This document shows, one piece after another, positions 53,291 through 63,768 of a stretch of DNA of 63,768 nt (its first letter is position 1; each line of letters starts with the position of its first letter). Under the pieces are notes generated by a model that made no database searches, was not told the DNA's origin, and saw only the letters and a list, made by a program, of their open reading frames with translations. Both the position numbers and the translations under genes were made by a program. The DNA is from an uncultured beta proteobacterium. GTDB taxonomy: Bacteria; Pseudomonadota; Gammaproteobacteria; Burkholderiales; Burkholderiaceae. Location of the stretch: positions 1 through 63,768 of the forward strand of contig CAISYI010000035.1 in NCBI GenBank assembly GCA_903889595.1, given 5' to 3'.

Positions 53291-53305
53291 TCCAACACAT
53301 TAATT
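53279..53305 (-). terminator. Possible terminator of the FAH-pca-nitroreductase operon
   Basis: Read leftward, AATTAAT and ATTAATT (7 bp) close a 7-nt loop and are followed by TTTTTTT. It lies between the convergent nitroreductase and rarA stops, overlapping the last rarA codons. The stem has only A-T pairs, so strength is doubtful. Confidence 0.4.
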
Positions 53306-54004
53306 CTCATCAAAGAATTTCACAAAGTCATTTAGTTCAGCACGCTCAGTAACTAGTTGATTTACGGTTACAGAAGTATCTTCATATCCGAGGCTAATCG
53401 ACATCACATACTGCTCATCTTCTGGAATTTCAAGGATTTCAGTAATGACTTTGTGATAAGAAATAAAGGCCGCTTGAGGGCAACTTGCAAGACCTCTAGC
53501 AGTTGCTGCAATCAAAATATTTTGTACAAACATCCCGTAGTCAAGCCAACTCCCCTGCTCCATAACTCTCGGAATAGTTAACATCAAGGCGACAGGTGCA
53601 CCAAAAAATTCATAATTTTTGGCATGTAACTGATGCATTTTTTGGTGTTCACCACGTTCAATACCTGCAAGAGCGTAGAGGTCATAACCTACTTTCCTTC
53701 TGCGACTTAAAAAAGGCTCTGTCCAATTTTTAGGATAATAAATATACTCTGGTCGGTGCTGTAAATTCTTTTCAGGATCATTAAAAATTTCTAAAACAGC
53801 ATTAGTAATTTCTTGTTTTTTGGCACCCGATAAAACATAAACCTTCCATGGTTGAATATTTGACCCAGAAGGAGCTTTAGAAGATACCCGCAAAATATCC
53901 TCAATCATTTGACGAGGAATTGGCGTTGATAAAAACCCCCTTACCGAACGCCGTAATTGCATTACCTCATCGACAGCCTTCGTTACTTGCGATATATCCA
54001 TCAT
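53300..54004 (-). CDS. Nitroreductase family flavoprotein
   Basis: FMN-dependent oxidoreductase of about 234 residues. RRSVRGFLSTPIP (FMN phosphate arginines), SKAPSGSNIQPWKVYVL and the C-terminal MSISLGYED mark the family. I start it at the ATG 54002-54004, 11 bp after the thiolase stop; the frame is open upstream but that part lies in thiolase coding. Family members reduce nitroaromatics, quinones or enones; the substrate is not evident. As the last gene of an aromatic-type operon it could act on a nitro- or quinone-like intermediate. Confidence 0.88.
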   Translation of the reverse strand: MMDISQVTKAVDEVMQLRRSVRGFLSTPIPRQMIEDILRVSSKAPSGSNIQPWKVYVLSGAKKQEITNAVLEIFNDPEKNLQHRPEYIYYPKNWTEPFLSRRRKVGYDLYALAGIERGEHQKMHQLHAKNYEFFGAPVALMLTIPRVMEQGSWLDYGMFVQNILIAATARGLASCPQAAFISYHKVITEILEIPEDEQYVMSISLGYEDTSVTVNQLVTERAELNDFVKFFDEN

Positions 54005-54015
54005 TAAAAGTCTAA

Positions 54016-55236
54016 CTAAACACGTTCGATCACAATAGCGATACCTTGACCTACACCAATACACATGGTGCAAAGAGCATATCTTCCACCTTTTTGCTCA
54101 AGCTCATATAGTGCTGTTGTGACTAGTCTTGCCCCACTCATGCCTAGTGGATGACCTAAAGCAATTGCCCCGCCATTAGGATTGACCCGTGCATCATCAT
54201 CGGCAACACCAAGATCTCTGAGAGTTGCTAGACCTTGAGAAGCAAACGCCTCATTGAGTTCAATCACATCCATCTGTGAAATATCGAGCCCCAACATATT
54301 TAACACTTTTTTACTCGCAGGAGCAGGACCAAACCCCATGATACGAGGGGCGACACCAGCTGTGGCAAGACCTAAGATTTTAGCCCTAGGTTTCAGTTGA
54401 AATTGCTCCACAGCATCAGCAGAGGCAATCAATAAGGCACAAGCACCGTCATTGACACCAGATGCGTTACCGGCAGTAACCGTACCGTCAGGTTTGACAA
54501 TTGGTTTTAATTTTTGTAAGGCCTCAATCGTGGTTGCTCTTGGATGTTCATCTTGACTAACAACAACAGGTTCACCTTTTTTTGAGGGAATCGTTACTGG
54601 AGTAATTTCTAAAGCAAGACGTCCATTTTGTTGAGCCTCAGATGCCTTTGATTGTGATCTTAATGCAAAAGCATCTTGATCTGCTCTTGAAATATTAAAA
54701 TCTCCAGCGACGTTTTCAGCTGTTTCAGGCATTGAATCAACGCCGTGTAATTGTTTCATTAGAGGATTAATAAAGCGCCAGCCAATTGTTGTATCGAATA
54801 CTTGATTAGTTCTAGAAAAAGCAGTGTCAGCTTTAGGCATGACAAATGGTGCCCGACTCATACTCTCAACGCCGCCAGCTATACCTAAATGGATTTGGCC
54901 AGAAATAATACCTCTAGATACAACTCCAATTGCGTCCATTCCAGAACCACATAGGCGATTTACAGTTGAACCAGGAACTTCAACTGGTAAACCAGCTAAT
55001 AACAAGCTCATCCTAGCTACATTTCGATTATCTTCACCAGCTTGGTTAGCATTACCGTAAACCACCTCATCAACTTTAGTCCAATCGACTTGAGGATTAC
55101 GCTGCATTAAGGCCTTGATTGGTACAGCGCCTAAATCATCCGTTCTGACACTCGATAATGACCCGGCATATCGACCGATTGGGGTTCTAATAGCATCACA
55201 AATATAAGCAACATTTGGTTTTAATTCATTTGACAA
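54016..55236 (-). CDS. pcaF: 3-oxoadipyl-CoA thiolase (acetyl-CoA acyltransferase)
   Basis: Cleaves 3-oxoadipyl-CoA into succinyl-CoA and acetyl-CoA. The nucleophile is C96 in NRLCGSGMD; the histidine and second cysteine lie in GGAIALGHPLGMSG and CTMCIGVGQG. The N-terminal ICDAIRTPIGRYAGSL closely resembles PcaF/PaaJ. It starts with TTG (55234-55236) eight bases after AGGGG; no in-frame ATG is near. Directly behind the CoA-transferase pair, it would complete the beta-ketoadipate route into the TCA cycle. Confidence 0.92.
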   Translation of the reverse strand: MSNELKPNVAYICDAIRTPIGRYAGSLSSVRTDDLGAVPIKALMQRNPQVDWTKVDEVVYGNANQAGEDNRNVARMSLLLAGLPVEVPGSTVNRLCGSGMDAIGVVSRGIISGQIHLGIAGGVESMSRAPFVMPKADTAFSRTNQVFDTTIGWRFINPLMKQLHGVDSMPETAENVAGDFNISRADQDAFALRSQSKASEAQQNGRLALEITPVTIPSKKGEPVVVSQDEHPRATTIEALQKLKPIVKPDGTVTAGNASGVNDGACALLIASADAVEQFQLKPRAKILGLATAGVAPRIMGFGPAPASKKVLNMLGLDISQMDVIELNEAFASQGLATLRDLGVADDDARVNPNGGAIALGHPLGMSGARLVTTALYELEQKGGRYALCTMCIGVGQGIAIVIERV

Positions 55237-55248
55237 TTTAACTACCCC

Positions 55249-55917
55249 TTAATTTTTTAAGAGTTTCGCATCTGTTACAGATTGCAATAACTCAAAGGAC
55301 ATATCATTAAAAATTTCTTTGACGAGTAATCCTCCAGGGACTACTTCAAAAACGCCTAAATCAGTAAAAATCATTGCTACACAAGCAACGCCTGTTAACG
55401 GATAGGCACATTTTTGGACTAATTTACTGCTACCTTCTTTAGTTAAGTGATCCATCATCACAAAAGTTTTATTGGCGCCAACGGCTAAATCCATCGCTCC
55501 ACCGACTGCCGGAATAGCATCTGCATCACCTGTATGCCAATTGGCTAAATCCCCTGACTCTGAAACTTGATAGGCACCCAATACACAAATATCTAAATGA
55601 CCACCACGCATAATTGCAAAGGAATCTGCCTGATGAAAATAGGAACCACCAGTTAGTAAGGTTACTGGCTGTTTACCTGCATTAATCAAATCCCAATCTT
55701 CTTCACCCTTTGCAGGTGCTGGCCCCATACCCAAAATACCATTTTCGGAGTGTAAAAATATTTCTTTATCTTCCGGTAAGTAGTTTGCGACGATAGTTGG
55801 CATACCAATCCCTAAGTTCACATAGGCACCTTCTGGTATGTAGGAAGCAATTTTGGCAGCGACTTCATTACGAGTGACTGGCTTTAATGAAGATAGTTCT
55901 GTTGGTTGACTCATCAT
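55249..55917 (-). CDS. pcaJ: 3-oxoadipate CoA-transferase subunit B
   Basis: Beta subunit of the succinyl-CoA:3-oxoacid CoA-transferase family. The catalytic glutamate is in HSENGILGMGP; the N-terminal YVNLGIGMPT and GGAMDLAVGAN are typical. 222 residues; overlaps pcaI by 4 nt. The 3-oxoadipate assignment is from sequence impression plus the pcaF neighbour; an acetoacetate-type substrate is the alternative. Confidence 0.9.
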   Translation of the reverse strand: MMSQPTELSSLKPVTRNEVAAKIASYIPEGAYVNLGIGMPTIVANYLPEDKEIFLHSENGILGMGPAPAKGEEDWDLINAGKQPVTLLTGGSYFHQADSFAIMRGGHLDICVLGAYQVSESGDLANWHTGDADAIPAVGGAMDLAVGANKTFVMMDHLTKEGSSKLVQKCAYPLTGVACVAMIFTDLGVFEVVPGGLLVKEIFNDMSFELLQSVTDAKLLKN

Positions 55918-56591
55918 TTTTCCCCTTTATTGCCCATTGGCACGACGTATTTGACAAAAATACCTGGTGTCACAACAGTTTCTGGATCAAGTTCGCCAAG
56001 TTCTACTACGTGATTAACTTGGGCAATCGTATTTTTTGCAGCCATCGCCATGATTGGACCAAAATTTCTAGAAGCTTTTCGATAGACTAGATTCCCCCAA
56101 CGATCACCTTTGTCCCCTTTAATTAGGGCAAAATCTGCACTTAAGGGAGTTTCAAAGACATAGTTTTTGCCATTGATCAGTCTAGTTTCTTTACCTTCTG
56201 CAAGTAAAGTACCGTAGGCGGTTTGCGTAAAAAACCCGCCTAAACCTGCACCCTCTGCTCTGATTCTCTCCGCCAAATTACCCTGAGGGGTTAATTCCAA
56301 CTCAATTTGTTTAGCTTTAAAAAGATTATCAAATACGTAAGAATCAGCCATGCGCGGATAAGAGCAGATAATTTTTCTGACTCTACGCGCTTTTAATAAA
56401 GCTGCGATGCCTGTTTCTCCACTACCGGCATTATTCGTAATGATCACCAAGTCTTTAGCATTTTGACCCACTAAACCCTCAATCAATTCATGCGGAATAC
56501 CAGAGCCACCGAAACCACCAATCATGATGGTCGCACCATCTTTGAGACCAGCAAAGAGCTGGTCCATATCTACTGAAACTTTATTTATCAT
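55914..56591 (-). CDS. pcaI: 3-oxoadipate CoA-transferase subunit A
   Basis: Alpha subunit of the CoA-transferase. The CoA-binding glycine loop GGFGGSGIPHELI, NNAGSGETG, and FFTQTAYGTLLAEGKETR match PcaI/CatI-type proteins rather than ScoA; 225 residues. It follows the FAH gene by 9 bp in one transcript. Confidence 0.9.
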   Translation of the reverse strand: MINKVSVDMDQLFAGLKDGATIMIGGFGGSGIPHELIEGLVGQNAKDLVIITNNAGSGETGIAALLKARRVRKIICSYPRMADSYVFDNLFKAKQIELELTPQGNLAERIRAEGAGLGGFFTQTAYGTLLAEGKETRLINGKNYVFETPLSADFALIKGDKGDRWGNLVYRKASRNFGPIMAMAAKNTIAQVNHVVELGELDPETVVTPGIFVKYVVPMGNKGEK

Positions 56592-56600
56592 AGGATTTTT

Positions 56601-57296
56601 TTATTGCTTTGGTCCAATAGTAAGTTCAAGGGTTGGTAAATGATCGATCGTACCAACTAAATAATCACCCACCTCTACTTTGCCTACACCTTCAGGAGTT
56701 CCTGTATAAATCAAGTCACCCTCTTTAAGGTGGTAAAACTGGGATAAATTAGAAATTACTTCTGCAACACTCCAAATCAAGGCATTCAGATCAGAGGATT
56801 GTTTGACTTGACCATTTACAGTCAATTCAATCTTGCCGTTATTTAGTGGACCTGTCACAGATTTAGGGATGATTTCAGAAATGACAGCAGAGTCTTCAAA
56901 GGCCTTACCAAAGTCCCATGGACGTCCCATTTCACGGCTAGCAATTTGAAGGTCACGACGTGTCATGTCCAATCCGGTAGCATAACCATAAACACAATCC
57001 TCTGCATCTTCAACAGCCACTCTAAAAGCAGGCTTACCAATGGCAATCACTAATTCCATTTCATAATGTAAGTTATTTGTGCTTAGAGCATAAGGGGTTG
57101 TTGCTGGACTTAGAACAATTGCGTTTGCTGGCTTCATAAAATAAAAAGGTGGTTCACGATCTGGATCAAAGCCCATTTCTCTAGCATGCGCCGCATAATT
57201 ACGGCCAACACAAAAAATTCTTGAAACTGCGTAGGAAGCGTCCGTACCTTTTACTGGCACACTTGGAATGGCTTCTGGGTTAAATACATAATTCAT
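56601..57296 (-). CDS. Fumarylacetoacetate hydrolase-family protein (fumarylpyruvate hydrolase-like)
   Basis: A 231-residue FAH-fold C-C hydrolase. IFCVGRNYAAHAREMG, PFYFMKPANAIV, LHYEMELVIAIG (metal glutamates) and YTGTPEGVGKVEVGD are the family motifs. It strongly resembles NagK-type fumarylpyruvate hydrolases of the gentisate pathway, though similar proteins act as oxaloacetate decarboxylases or acylpyruvases. AAGGA lies six bases before the ATG. First gene of the pcaIJF operon; gentisate dioxygenase and maleylpyruvate isomerase are not in the window. Confidence 0.85.
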   Translation of the reverse strand: MNYVFNPEAIPSVPVKGTDASYAVSRIFCVGRNYAAHAREMGFDPDREPPFYFMKPANAIVLSPATTPYALSTNNLHYEMELVIAIGKPAFRVAVEDAEDCVYGYATGLDMTRRDLQIASREMGRPWDFGKAFEDSAVISEIIPKSVTGPLNNGKIELTVNGQVKQSSDLNALIWSVAEVISNLSQFYHLKEGDLIYTGTPEGVGKVEVGDYLVGTIDHLPTLELTIGPKQ

Positions 57297-57366
57297 GATT
57301 CATCCTTAAAAAAATTTGTCTCAAGCTCACAATAATAAACCACTTAGCAGTTCACATTCCCGATAT

Positions 57367-57429
57367 GGGATGAATTACCCCCATGCTTGAACTAACTTCG
57401 CTTATTTTAAAAAACAGGATGAATTGCCT
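57367..57429. promoter_or_regulatory. Two copies of a GGATGAATTnCC motif in the FAH/dehydrogenase divergent gap
   Basis: GGGATGAATTACCC (57367-57380) and AGGATGAATTGCCT (57416-57429) share GGATGAATT-N-CC in the same orientation, 49 bp apart, and each has complementary ends. They lie upstream of both divergent genes and about 40-100 bp from a possible FAH-operon -10 (TATTAT on the minus strand at 57332-57337), where an activator could bind. A shorter GGATGAAT at 57298-57305 on the minus strand coincides with the FAH ribosome site. Confidence 0.45.
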
Positions 57430-57500
57430 AAGTTAATCTAAAAAAATTAATTGCTTTGTGATTTGTGTAAAAATCAATTGAAATAAATTATTTTGAAAAG

Positions 57501-58646
57501 ATGATTCAAATGTCACATATTCAATATTTAACTCAAATTTACCTCGAATCAGGCGCTATCCAACGCATCCAATCTGAATGCATCAGACTGAATATCCAAA
57601 AACCTTTGATTGTTACCGACCAAGGAATTAAATCGGCTGGAATTTTATCGAAAATTGAGCAGGTTTTAGGGGGCATGGAATATGTTGTGTTTGATCAAAC
57701 TCCATCAAACCCCACCCAACATGCAACTGAGTTAGGTAAAGCACTCTATGAAAAGAATAACTGTGATGGCTTAATTGCACTTGGAGGAGGCTCTTCTATT
57801 GATTGCGCAAAAGTAATCTCAATCCTAACATCACATCATGAACCACTAAAAAACTATGCCACCATTGAAGGCGGATCTAACAAGATTACTGCCCAAGTTG
57901 CCCCCTTAATAGCAGTGCCAACGACCAGTGGCACGGGGAGTGAAGTGGGAAGAGGAGCCATCTTAATTTTGGACGATCAACGTAAAGTGGGATTTCACTC
58001 TTGGCATATTTTGCCTAAATCAGCTATCTGCGATCCAGATCTCACTTTAAATTTACCCCCCTACCTTACGGCGGCTACCGGGATGGATGCGATTGCACAT
58101 TGTGTCGAGACTTTTTTAAATCCCCCTTTCAACCCAACAGCAGATGCCATTGCTTTAGATGGTTTAGAAAGAGCTTGGCAAAATATTGAATTAGCAACTC
58201 AAGATGGTCAACATCAAGAAGCAAGACTGCAGATGATGACCGCATCCATGCATGGTGCGATGGCCTTTCAAAAGGGACTGGGTTGTATCCATAGCCTTAG
58301 TCATAGTCTTGGTGGTTTATTTCCAAATCTTCATCACGGCACTCTTAATGCTGTCTTCTTACCTGCTGTATTGCGTTTTAATGCAAAGGCGCAATCAGTA
58401 ATTGAGCAAAAAAAAATGGCGACGATTGCCCAAAAGATTGGTGTCTCAGACGAGAGTATTTTGCCCGAAGCGATGTTGAATCTTTCGAAAAGACTAGGGC
58501 TTCCAACTGGTTTAAAAGATTTAGGGATTGAAGAAGCTCATTTTGATCAGATTATTCAAGGAGCTTTAAAAGATCATTGCCACTTCACTAATCCAAGAAT
58601 CGCGACATTTGATGATTATAGAAATATTCTTCTCGAATCGATGTAA
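57501..58646 (+). CDS. Iron-containing alcohol dehydrogenase (possibly maleylacetate reductase-like)
   Basis: A 381-residue group III dehydrogenase. The NAD-binding GGGSSIDCAK near 98-107 and PTTSGTGSEVG follow family consensus. Metal ligands appear in AICDPDLT, DAIAHCVET, HSLSHSLGG and NLHHGTLNAV. Maleylacetate reductases belong to this superfamily and feed 3-oxoadipate to PcaIJ, which would suit the divergent operon. However, the length and HCVETFLNPPFNPTAD look more like a general alcohol or hydroxybutyrate dehydrogenase. Met4 is an alternative start. A run of nine A bases lies at 58408-58416, in frame. Confidence 0.85.
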   Translation: MIQMSHIQYLTQIYLESGAIQRIQSECIRLNIQKPLIVTDQGIKSAGILSKIEQVLGGMEYVVFDQTPSNPTQHATELGKALYEKNNCDGLIALGGGSSIDCAKVISILTSHHEPLKNYATIEGGSNKITAQVAPLIAVPTTSGTGSEVGRGAILILDDQRKVGFHSWHILPKSAICDPDLTLNLPPYLTAATGMDAIAHCVETFLNPPFNPTADAIALDGLERAWQNIELATQDGQHQEARLQMMTASMHGAMAFQKGLGCIHSLSHSLGGLFPNLHHGTLNAVFLPAVLRFNAKAQSVIEQKKMATIAQKIGVSDESILPEAMLNLSKRLGLPTGLKDLGIEEAHFDQIIQGALKDHCHFTNPRIATFDDYRNILLESM

Positions 58647-61334: not shown

Positions 61335-62612
61335 ATGACATCACAAACCATTTCGAATTTTAAAACATCCAAGACTCACCCTATCTCAAACAAAACTTGG
61401 CCCACTGAGGGTGTGAGTAGAGCTCCATATTGGCTTTATACAGACCCAGATATTTATTTATTAGAACAAGCTAATATTTTCAGGGGTAATGCTTGGCATT
61501 ATTTAGGAATCGATGCAGAGGTTCCTGAAACTGGCGACTACAAAACCACCTATATTGGAGATACTTCAGTTCTGATGGTTCGGGCTGAGGACGGCTCAAT
61601 TAATGGCATGGTGAATCGCTGTGCTCACCGAGGTAACATGGTTTGTCGGGATGCCTTCGGTAAAGCAGAATCTCTCTACTGCGTCTATCATGCTTGGAAC
61701 TATGACCTTAAGGGAAATTTAAAAAATGCTGCTTTTAGTCGAGGTATTCGGGGTGAAGGTGGTTTACCTAAAGATTTTGATAAAGCCAATCATGGTCTGA
61801 CCCAACTTCGTACCGAAGTTATTTGTGGCCTCGTTTTTGCTACATTTAGCCAAACAATCGAACCTCTAGAAGAATGGCTTGGTGATGTTGCTTACGGTAT
61901 TAAACGATTGCTAACACGACCCTTAAAAATATTAGGTTATGACACGCAGAGAATCAAATCGAACTGGAAAAATTATCATGAAAACCCCAGAGATTCTTAT
62001 CATGCCAATATCTTGCATACCTTTTATGGGACATTTGGCTTATCAAGACAATCTCAAGAGTCGGGCATGGTATTAGATAAGATGGGTCGTCATTCTTGCT
62101 TCTTCACAAAAGCGGGCACAGAAAAGAACGATACCAATTATCAAAATACCACCTCCGAGTTAAGATCACACAATGATCAACTCAAGCTAGAAGATCCCTC
62201 TATCTTAAAGTGGGTGGATGAAATTGGTGATGGTGTGAGTGTCCAAATTCTATCGACCTACCCTTCTTTTGTTCTTCATCAAATCGCTAATAGTCTTGCG
62301 ACAAGACAGTTACTACCTAAAGGACAAAATCAATGTGATTTAGTTTGGACGTATTTTGGTTTTGCTGACGACGATGAAGAAATTACACAAAGACGCTTAA
62401 TCCAAATCAACCTAGCGGGCTCCGCAGGAATGATCTCCGTTGAGGATGCGGCTGTATGTGAAATGACATATCGTGCGATTGCAGATGGTCAAGTAGGTAA
62501 CTCTTTTATTGAGATGGGCGGGAAAGATCTGACTTCCGGCGGTTCTAGTAAATTATCCGAACGTGCTATTCGTAATTTTTGGCATAACTATCGCCAAGAA
62601 ATGAACCTTTAA
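61335..62612 (+). CDS. Rieske aromatic-ring-hydroxylating oxygenase, alpha subunit (salicylate 5-hydroxylase/anthranilate dioxygenase-like)
   Basis: A 425-residue large subunit. The Rieske [2Fe-2S] ligands are C96, H98, C116 and H119 (CAHRG, then CVYHAW). The mononuclear iron site has H223 and H228 with bridging D220 in NPRDSYHANILH, spaced as in naphthalene dioxygenase. PYWLYTDPDIY, IFRGNAWHYLG and NWKNYHEN resemble NagG (salicylate 5-hydroxylase) and AndAc (anthranilate 1,2-dioxygenase). It starts with ATG without a clear ribosome site. Ferredoxin and reductase partners are not in view. The exact substrate is open. Confidence 0.88.
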   Translation: MTSQTISNFKTSKTHPISNKTWPTEGVSRAPYWLYTDPDIYLLEQANIFRGNAWHYLGIDAEVPETGDYKTTYIGDTSVLMVRAEDGSINGMVNRCAHRGNMVCRDAFGKAESLYCVYHAWNYDLKGNLKNAAFSRGIRGEGGLPKDFDKANHGLTQLRTEVICGLVFATFSQTIEPLEEWLGDVAYGIKRLLTRPLKILGYDTQRIKSNWKNYHENPRDSYHANILHTFYGTFGLSRQSQESGMVLDKMGRHSCFFTKAGTEKNDTNYQNTTSELRSHNDQLKLEDPSILKWVDEIGDGVSVQILSTYPSFVLHQIANSLATRQLLPKGQNQCDLVWTYFGFADDDEEITQRRLIQINLAGSAGMISVEDAAVCEMTYRAIADGQVGNSFIEMGGKDLTSGGSSKLSERAIRNFWHNYRQEMNL

Positions 62613-62628
62613 AACAAAGAATTTAATC

Positions 62629-63117
62629 ATGCATACTTTTTATACCAACGAAACTGACTATCGTCTCGTTGAACAGTTAATTTTTGAATGGGCTCGTCGT
62701 ATCGATGAAAATCGAGTCGAGGAAATTGCTGATTTATTAGTTCCAAATGGCCGATATACAGTGCAATCTCGTTTTAATTTAGATAGAAATTTACCTCATT
62801 GCTCCATTGACTGCCATAATACAGCCCAGTTAAGAGATCGCATTTTATCCATGCGTATCGCTAATATATATGAACGACATCATTATCGACATATGATTTC
62901 TGGGATTCAAATATTAAAAAAAGAAAATAACCTTCTTGAAGTTGTTTCTAATTTTTCAATCATCAGAACGATGGAGTTAGATGGGCAAATTCAAATCATC
63001 TTCACAGGTCAAGCGAGAGACGAAATATCGATTGATCAACAAACGATTCTTTTTACCAAAAGGCATCTTGTGTTTGACTCAAGAGCAATTGAAACATTAC
63101 TTGTTATTCCAATTTAG
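62629..63117 (+). CDS. Aromatic-ring-hydroxylating oxygenase, beta subunit
   Basis: A 162-residue small subunit of the SnoaL-like/NTF2 fold that stacks with the alpha subunit in an alpha3-beta3 hexamer. LIFEWARRIDENRVEEIADLL opens the family pattern, and LRDRILSMRIANIYERHHYR is the strongly conserved beta-subunit stretch also seen in NagH and AndAd. It lies 16 bp after the alpha gene. The C-terminal LLVIPI is typical. Confidence 0.87.
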   Translation: MHTFYTNETDYRLVEQLIFEWARRIDENRVEEIADLLVPNGRYTVQSRFNLDRNLPHCSIDCHNTAQLRDRILSMRIANIYERHHYRHMISGIQILKKENNLLEVVSNFSIIRTMELDGQIQIIFTGQARDEISIDQQTILFTKRHLVFDSRAIETLLVIPI

Positions 63118-63132
63118 GGAAGTTTAAAACTT

Positions 63133-63768
63133 ATGTCAAAACCACAAATTGATCGAAGAATTGTTCTCAAACAGTCATTAGCACTATCTGGGCTTGTTAT
63201 TTCTGGATCTGTTTTTTCTCAAAACAATTGGCCACAAAAGCCAATTAGGATAATTGTTCCAAACCCAGCTGGTGGAACAGCAGATGCCCTGCCGCGGTTA
63301 CTTGCTGAGCCACTATCCAAAGCTTTAGGCCAATCCATTATTGTTGAAAATAAGCCTGGCGCTGCCGGCAATATCGCAGCAGAATATATCTTTAATGCTG
63401 AGGCAGATGGCTACACTCTGTTTGCATCTCCGCCACCTGCCCTATCAATTAACGCTAATTTATATCCAAAGTTAAATTATCAAGCTTCACAATTTGTTCC
63501 GATTACCGTGATGGCAGCAGTACCTAATGCCCTAATGGTGCATCCATCCTTACCATTTAATACGGTTCCTGAATTTTTAAATTATTTAAAAGCAAATCCG
63601 GATAAATTGACTTATGCCTCTCAGGGTAGTGGTTCAACTGCGCACTTAACAGCGGAACTATTTAAACTTAAAACCGGCTTAAAAATGCTGCATGTTCCTT
63701 ACAAAGGCGACGCACCAGCAATTACTGATTTATTAGCTGGTCATGTGGATGTTATGTTTGGGAATATT
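63133..63768 (+). CDS. Bug/TctC-family tripartite tricarboxylate-transporter substrate-binding protein (3' end outside window)
   Basis: The first 212 codons, open to the right edge. The ATG at 63133 follows AGGGAAG. A signal peptide (basic start RRIVLKQ, hydrophobic LALSGLVISGSVF, cut near SQ|NN) is followed by WPQKPIRIIVPNPAGGTADALPR-type Bug sequence: IIVPNPAGGTADAL, ENKPGAAGNIAAE, ASQGSGSTAHLTAEL and MLHVPYKGDAPA. Bug proteins bind carboxylates or aromatic acids in the periplasm; behind the oxygenase genes it could bring in their substrate. No membrane TctAB genes are in view. Confidence 0.9.
   Translation, partial: MSKPQIDRRIVLKQSLALSGLVISGSVFSQNNWPQKPIRIIVPNPAGGTADALPRLLAEPLSKALGQSIIVENKPGAAGNIAAEYIFNAEADGYTLFASPPPALSINANLYPKLNYQASQFVPITVMAAVPNALMVHPSLPFNTVPEFLNYLKANPDKLTYASQGSGSTAHLTAELFKLKTGLKMLHVPYKGDAPAITDLLAGHVDVMFGNI

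Follow-up and report, generated by a model that had tools for sequence, protein, structure and literature searches.

The locus analyzed here resembles three described types of aromatic degradation cluster. Gentisate clusters such as mhbRTDHI of Burkholderia xenovorans LB400 combine a hydroxylase, a dioxygenase, an isomerase and a hydrolase of about 230 residues (PMC3572157). In the beta-ketoadipate pathway, pcaIJF encodes a CoA-transferase pair and a thiolase in that order, and the box pathway needs a 3-oxoadipyl-CoA thiolase, a role described for PcaF in Burkholderia sp. K24 (PMC4849787). The window, i.e. the whole stretch of DNA that was analyzed, is contig CAISYI010000035.1 (C35; 63,768 nucleotides) of the draft genome (2.65 Mb in 291 contigs, 86% complete) of an uncultured freshwater Polynucleobacter. 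Near its end lies a minus-strand operon encoding a FAH-family hydrolase, PcaI, PcaJ, PcaF and a nitroreductase, with an iron-type dehydrogenase gene divergent to it. We propose, with a probability of roughly 0.6, that this operon pools the last steps of two aromatic routes, gentisate and box, whose upper genes are encoded elsewhere in the genome.

The operon is headed by the FAH (231 residues; 56601–57296), which matches Pfam PF01557 with 176.6 bits (cut-off 23.9). It is followed by the 3-oxoacid CoA-transferase subunits A (PcaI type, 55914–56591; TIGR02429, 354.6 bits, cut-off 128.5) and B (PcaJ type, 55249–55917; TIGR02428, 299.3 bits, cut-off 243.55), and by the 3-oxoadipyl-CoA thiolase PcaF (54016–55236, with a TTG start as listed; NF006551, 735 bits, cut-off 605; TIGR02430, 720 bits, cut-off 597). 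A nitroreductase-family flavoprotein of 234 residues (53300–54004; PF00881, 119 bits, cut-off 23.5) closes the unit; its start is the ATG at 54004, and a longer TTG form reaching to 54073 would overlap PcaF. Reading frames and profile searches agree that all six genes, including that of the dehydrogenase, are open and present. Successive gaps of 9, −4, 12 and 11 bases suggest, by spacing alone, that the five minus-strand genes share one transcript. The tight unit with its divergent dehydrogenase, as well as the joining of a gentisate-type hydrolase with beta-ketoadipate genes in a packed unit that holds no ring-cleavage gene, had been noted in a sequence-only reading of this DNA, and the gene calls, profiles and gaps bear out both observations.

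Conservation of the locus was assessed in a set of 186 Polynucleobacter genomes, labeled here with G-numbers (the source genome is G000), in which the stretches read carry L-numbers. Compared by the window FAH, the closest named relatives are P. rarus, at 98%, and P. kasalickyi, at 94%; the strains MT-CBb6A5 and VK13, respectively, of these species have the operon. A window-type FAH (72–100% identity) is found in 11 of the 186 genomes, always in this operon, and the order FAH-PcaI-PcaJ-PcaF with the divergent iron-type dehydrogenase is kept in all 11. The nitroreductase follows PcaF in 10 of them, and in the other, G204, the contig stops before that place. Given this conservation, the gene order is more than chance. 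A foreign origin was rejected on composition: in total and third-position guanine-plus-cytosine content the genes are close to 15 others of the window, which were selected manually.

The upper part of the first route is found on contig C78 of the source genome, where an operon encodes a 3-hydroxybenzoate 6-hydroxylase (645 bits, cut-off 459), a gentisate-dioxygenase homologue and a maleylacetoacetate/maleylpyruvate-isomerase-type protein (266 bits, cut-off 171), and contains no hydrolase gene. These are the first three enzymes of the mhbRTDHI-type clusters; unlike in those clusters, the hydrolase is encoded on a different contig, as the first gene of a pcaIJF operon. The hydrolase of the B. 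xenovorans cluster, MhbH, has 232 residues (PMC3572157), so that FAHs of about the length of the window protein close gentisate clusters. Hydroxylase, dioxygenase and isomerase genes stand together in all 11 operon genomes, and no FAH gene was found in the flanks of the gentisate operon in any of them (about 1.5 kb read, shorter at contig ends). Homologues of the C78 dioxygenase (E≤1e-60) occur in 14 of the 186 genomes, namely the 11 operon genomes and G025, G003 and G152 (3 of the 175 others). In these last three (L162, L163 and L164, respectively) no isomerase gene adjoins that of the dioxygenase, and in L162 and L164 it lies next to the gene of a hydroxylase-like monooxygenase that shares only about 24% identity with the C78 hydroxylase.

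FAH relatives outside the genus point in the same direction. Among the 73 closest loci, which were chosen by FAH similarity and covered at most 7 kb on each side, 40 have a dioxygenase homologue within 7 kb and 44 have at least one gentisate gene; a CoA-transferase A gene was found in none of the 73 and a PcaF-like match in two. In all 40 dioxygenase-linked loci the closest FAH is of the window type, which shows little because the loci were chosen for that similarity. Four of 170 plasmid records were inspected for FAH context: three are gentisate-type clusters (annotated Azospirillum and Caballeronia among them), and in the fourth, from Massilia, the FAH gene adjoins that of a dioxygenase homologue (48%) within a set of acyl-CoA genes. 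A tree of 115 FAH proteins sets the common FAH of the genus apart (100/100) and places the window type (100/94) together (98/95) with two sets: an Ottowia-type one, of which five of nine are dioxygenase-linked, and a Roseateles-type one. The closest PDB entries to the window FAH are 6j5y and 4maq, the latter a "putative fumarylpyruvate hydrolase"; the window FAH itself matched NCBIfam models, reaching the cut-off of none of them. Residues H37, E40, E79, E81, D110 and K131, which align with FAHD1 and are invariant in all eight aligned relatives, are presumably the catalytic or metal-binding residues. The same H..E, E.E, D and K pattern is common to other FAH enzymes and is thus non-specific for fumarylpyruvate hydrolase. 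Taken together, the window FAH is probably a fumarylpyruvate hydrolase and the last enzyme of the gentisate route; it would cleave fumarylpyruvate to fumarate and pyruvate, closing the 3-hydroxybenzoate/gentisate route of C78.

The second route is encoded on contig C16 of the source genome, which carries genes for BoxC, BoxB, BoxA, a hydratase-like protein, a 3-hydroxyacyl-CoA dehydrogenase, a second hydratase-like protein and a MaoC-like protein. The operon stops there, with no thiolase gene at its end. The opposite strand encodes a 3,4-dehydroadipyl-CoA semialdehyde dehydrogenase and a benzoate-CoA ligase; both of these and BoxC, BoxB and BoxA score over their model cut-offs. PcaF of the window is the sole match in the source genome at E≤1e-150, a threshold that leaves weaker thiolases outside the search. 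In G052 the same box gene order is continued by the genes for PcaF and for a nitroreductase with 43% identity to that of the window, so the two genes close the box operon there. The box operons of the source genome, G043, G146 and G218 differ from it in this respect, with neither gene found within the 12–19.5 kb around the box genes; some middle genes were also not found at the G218 locus. The box stretches read in G204, G205, G215 and G231 span 4.4 kb. Across the set, boxB occurs in 8 of the 11 operon genomes and in 1 of the 175 others. One of 11 plasmid records was inspected for box context, and no thiolase or nitroreductase is annotated there adjoining boxABC. The phenylacetate route was rejected, with PaaA found in 0 of 14 genomes. 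PcaF is probably the thiolase of the box route and would serve the C16 operon, an assignment that is less certain than that of the FAH. With the FAH closing the one route and PcaF serving the other, the operon would pool the two last steps. Separately, a second Rieske-type alpha/beta pair, named from its translation, lies beside the C16 box locus after a LIV-type transporter set (L304:9500–11257).

The nitroreductase would be an accessory flavoprotein that goes with PcaF. Its closest PDB entry is the nitroreductase 3gr3, and its best NCBIfam match, BluB, was rejected with 55 bits against a cut-off of 150. No thiolase or box gene is annotated beside the nitroreductase in the 4 of 290 plasmid records inspected for its context. 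A bolder extension, which we consider speculative, is that in a Polynucleobacter lineage the operon forms a shared lower funnel, in which the terminal enzymes of gentisate and benzoyl-CoA breakdown are placed under one control apart from the upper operons, and that the nitroreductase linked to PcaF assists the box pathway as an accessory enzyme not yet described, for instance by removing a reactive by-product.

PcaI and PcaJ score over their subfamily cut-offs with models that do not separate 3-oxoadipate from other 3-oxoacid transferases. They are 63% and 64% identical, respectively, to the copies in a benzoate-catechol operon of G161, in which BenA, BenD and the enol-lactonase pass their models. 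As in described pcaIJF sets, the transferase pair and the thiolase are encoded in order and exceed the model cut-offs; the locus differs from these sets in that it is joined with FAH and nitroreductase genes, and in that no intradiol dioxygenase was found in the 86%-complete source draft. Among the 11 operon genomes only G204 has one, and a source of free 3-oxoadipate was not found in the 10 others. PcaIJ would use succinyl-CoA to activate this free acid. A hydroxyquinol or other intradiol route was rejected on these counts, and its co-occurrence with the operon is no better than chance. Elsewhere in the set, intradiol dioxygenase frames with in-frame stops, apparently decaying, were seen in L132 (G138) and in L149 and L150 (G150).

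The history of the locus was examined with a tree of 31 of the 55 listed PcaF copies of the genus. In it, the 11 operon genomes and G025, G003 and G152 contribute a single group of copies (98/91), within which those of the last three nest (85/87). PcaF lies beside RarA in 13 of these 14 genomes, and in G204 the contig ends. The single PcaF group and the shared site indicate that pcaIJF at the RarA site is old in the lineage. The nesting implies that the FAH and nitroreductase genes either were gained once and lost in G025, G003 and G152, or were gained more than once. Fisher tests gave 2e-15 for the co-occurrence of operon and dioxygenase and 5e-11 for that of operon and boxB; they ignore kinship and are not used as proof.

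Several observations weigh against the pooling of two routes. The 11 operon genomes are close relatives, so that the counts of 11/11 versus 3/175 and 8/11 versus 1/175 are not independent trials and describe a lineage. Three of them (G046, G189 and G220) have the operon and no boxB, intradiol enzyme or PaaA was found in them; G189 is a single contig rated 100% complete, yet shows none of the three. The C78 dioxygenase scores below the NCBI gentisate cut-off (252 versus 442 bits). On the FAH side, none of the nine members of the Roseateles-type sister group is dioxygenase-linked, and linkage by identity band, from closest to farthest, is 4/5, 2/18, 14/21 and 18/25 (the bands take in 69 of the 73 loci), with the low value at 60–66% identity. 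Of the 29 genomes whose FAH has no nearby gentisate gene, 10 encode a dioxygenase homologue elsewhere and 19 have none. Finally, other FAH-family enzymes are at hand. Two more genes (285 and 288 residues) lie on C78 itself, 5.8 kb past the isomerase gene (L034:15012–16811), and a third FAH type, placed with weak support (94/46) in the gentisate-linked half of the tree, occurs in G043, G046, G189, G218 and G220, and also in G146, where it is split in two; in those genomes another enzyme could thus do the fumarylpyruvate job. The two pieces in G146 overlap and are apparently frameshifted (C1:483410–484071, in L294).

That fumarylpyruvate is split by the C78 pair or by the third type, with the window FAH in some other job, nevertheless seems improbable. 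Although close to the isomerase gene, the pair finds its best matches, without reaching the cut-off, in the models of 2,4-didehydro-3-deoxyrhamnonate hydrolase and HpaG, and it belongs to a separate gene group that includes an HpaD-like protein; the third type is found in six of the 11 operon genomes, counting the split copy, and was not seen in the source genome, G215, G204, G231 or G205. The group around the pair (L034:12466–17596) comprises the HpaD-like dioxygenase, the tandem FAH genes and a glutathione-dependent oxidoreductase, and is possibly another ring-cleavage set. The window FAH might instead be a housekeeping acylpyruvase or oxaloacetate-type enzyme, like FAHD1 or YcgM, that replaces the common FAH of the genus and has no gentisate role. 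Both proteins align well with it. The common type (80–81% identity within that type) was found in G025, G003 and G152 and not in any operon genome, and the 19 genomes without a dioxygenase noted above fit such a role. We regard this as unlikely, since the tree sets the common type apart from the window type, which sits in the half with many dioxygenase-linked FAHs, and the gentisate operon accompanies the window FAH in 11 of 11 genomes. For the remaining enzymes, it is distinctly unlikely that the substrate served by PcaIJ and PcaF is not aromatic 3-oxoadipate but another acid, for instance acetoacetate or a dicarboxylate like adipate. The missing source of free 3-oxoadipate, the breadth of the transferase models, the closest solved structures (succinyl-CoA:3-ketoacid transferases) and the three operon genomes without boxB would favor such a substrate; PcaF, on the other hand, passes the 3-oxoadipyl-CoA thiolase models, and both the identity of PcaI and PcaJ to the G161 copies and the distribution of boxB speak for an aromatic role.

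The sequence-only reading had offered another model, in which the divergent dehydrogenase (57501–58646, plus strand) is a maleylacetate reductase and the locus encodes a lower hydroxyquinol-like pathway. The enzyme belongs to the same protein superfamily as maleylacetate reductase and its gene adjoins the PcaIJF operon. In contrast, it exceeds the curated NCBI cut-off of NF058672, the Cupriavidus-type 4-hydroxybutyrate dehydrogenase (630.2 versus 500 bits), and the solved structures closest to it are dehydrogenases for methanol, 1,3-propanediol and lactaldehyde (E from 3e-62 to about 1e-48). The entries 3jzd and 3iv7, listed as an iron-containing alcohol dehydrogenase and an alcohol dehydrogenase IV and assumed by us to be maleylacetate reductases, match at about 5e-24 over part of the protein. 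By-eye comparison of the window protein alone shows CIHSLSHSLGG at the site of the maleylacetate reductase signature, with serine in place of the lysine. That signature reads LHHKLCHTLGG, and its lysine was found to be essential (PMC5741723). Profile, structure ranking and signature mismatch, together with the intradiol dioxygenase found in just 1 of the 11 operon genomes (the source genome included), make this model highly improbable, and the maleylacetate reductase assignment was rejected. The remark that no ring-cleavage enzyme is present holds for the operon and fails for the genome, in which the gentisate-dioxygenase homologue is encoded on C78 and a hydroxyquinol-type (intradiol) dioxygenase was not found in the 86%-complete draft. 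Of the two genes called unexplained additions, the nitroreductase can still be so described, though it also follows PcaF in the G052 box operon; the FAH probably has its place in the gentisate route.

By its profile score the dehydrogenase is a putative enzyme of the 4-hydroxybutyrate dehydrogenase type, differing from the Cupriavidus type in that its gene is divergent to an aromatic operon. In G015 it stands next to the same nuclease gene with no operon present, and in G025, G003 and G152 PcaIJF occupies the RarA site with no such dehydrogenase. The dehydrogenase is therefore probably a separable neighbor of the operon. The 204 bases between the dehydrogenase and FAH genes (57297–57500) are, by position only, the likely promoter region of both units; promoter-like sites are at about the shuffled level (15 versus 14.7), and terminator-like sites number 6 versus 4.3 in shuffles. 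In five relatives, and not in the window, a protein of about 240–345 residues is encoded between these two genes (L106:9753–10748, likewise L108, L109, L110 and L111). By eye it resembles RodZ, having a membrane span and, at its N-terminus, a stretch that looks like a helix-turn-helix; it has no NCBIfam match.

Further along the window, 2.7 kb past the stretch that holds the six genes, lies a ring-hydroxylating Rieske dioxygenase alpha and beta pair (61335–63117, plus strand), which the sequence-only entry on the operon does not mention. Its best model, AndAc, is matched far below cut-off, and the closest structures are 7vju, terephthalate dioxygenase 7q04 and salicylate 5-hydroxylase 7c8z. 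A Bug/TctC-like receptor gene starts after it at 63134 and is cut by the contig end. The pair occurs at the same site in G215 and G043 and not in the G146 stretch read, and was set aside as a part of the operon.

Every enzyme class at this locus is known. What is new, in comparison with the gentisate, pca and box clusters considered, is that a single operon, apart from the upper genes, brings together terminal genes of two routes; no description of this arrangement was found in the literature searched, which was covered mostly at abstract level and thinly for subscription journals. A pathway call based only on this cluster would overlook both routes, and each upper operon, taken by itself, would seem incomplete. 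The nitroreductase gains a gene context, PcaF and the box genes, for its role. A puzzling mixture of genes thus becomes a testable assignment, in which some Polynucleobacter would finish the breakdown of both 3-hydroxybenzoate and benzoate through one terminal operon.

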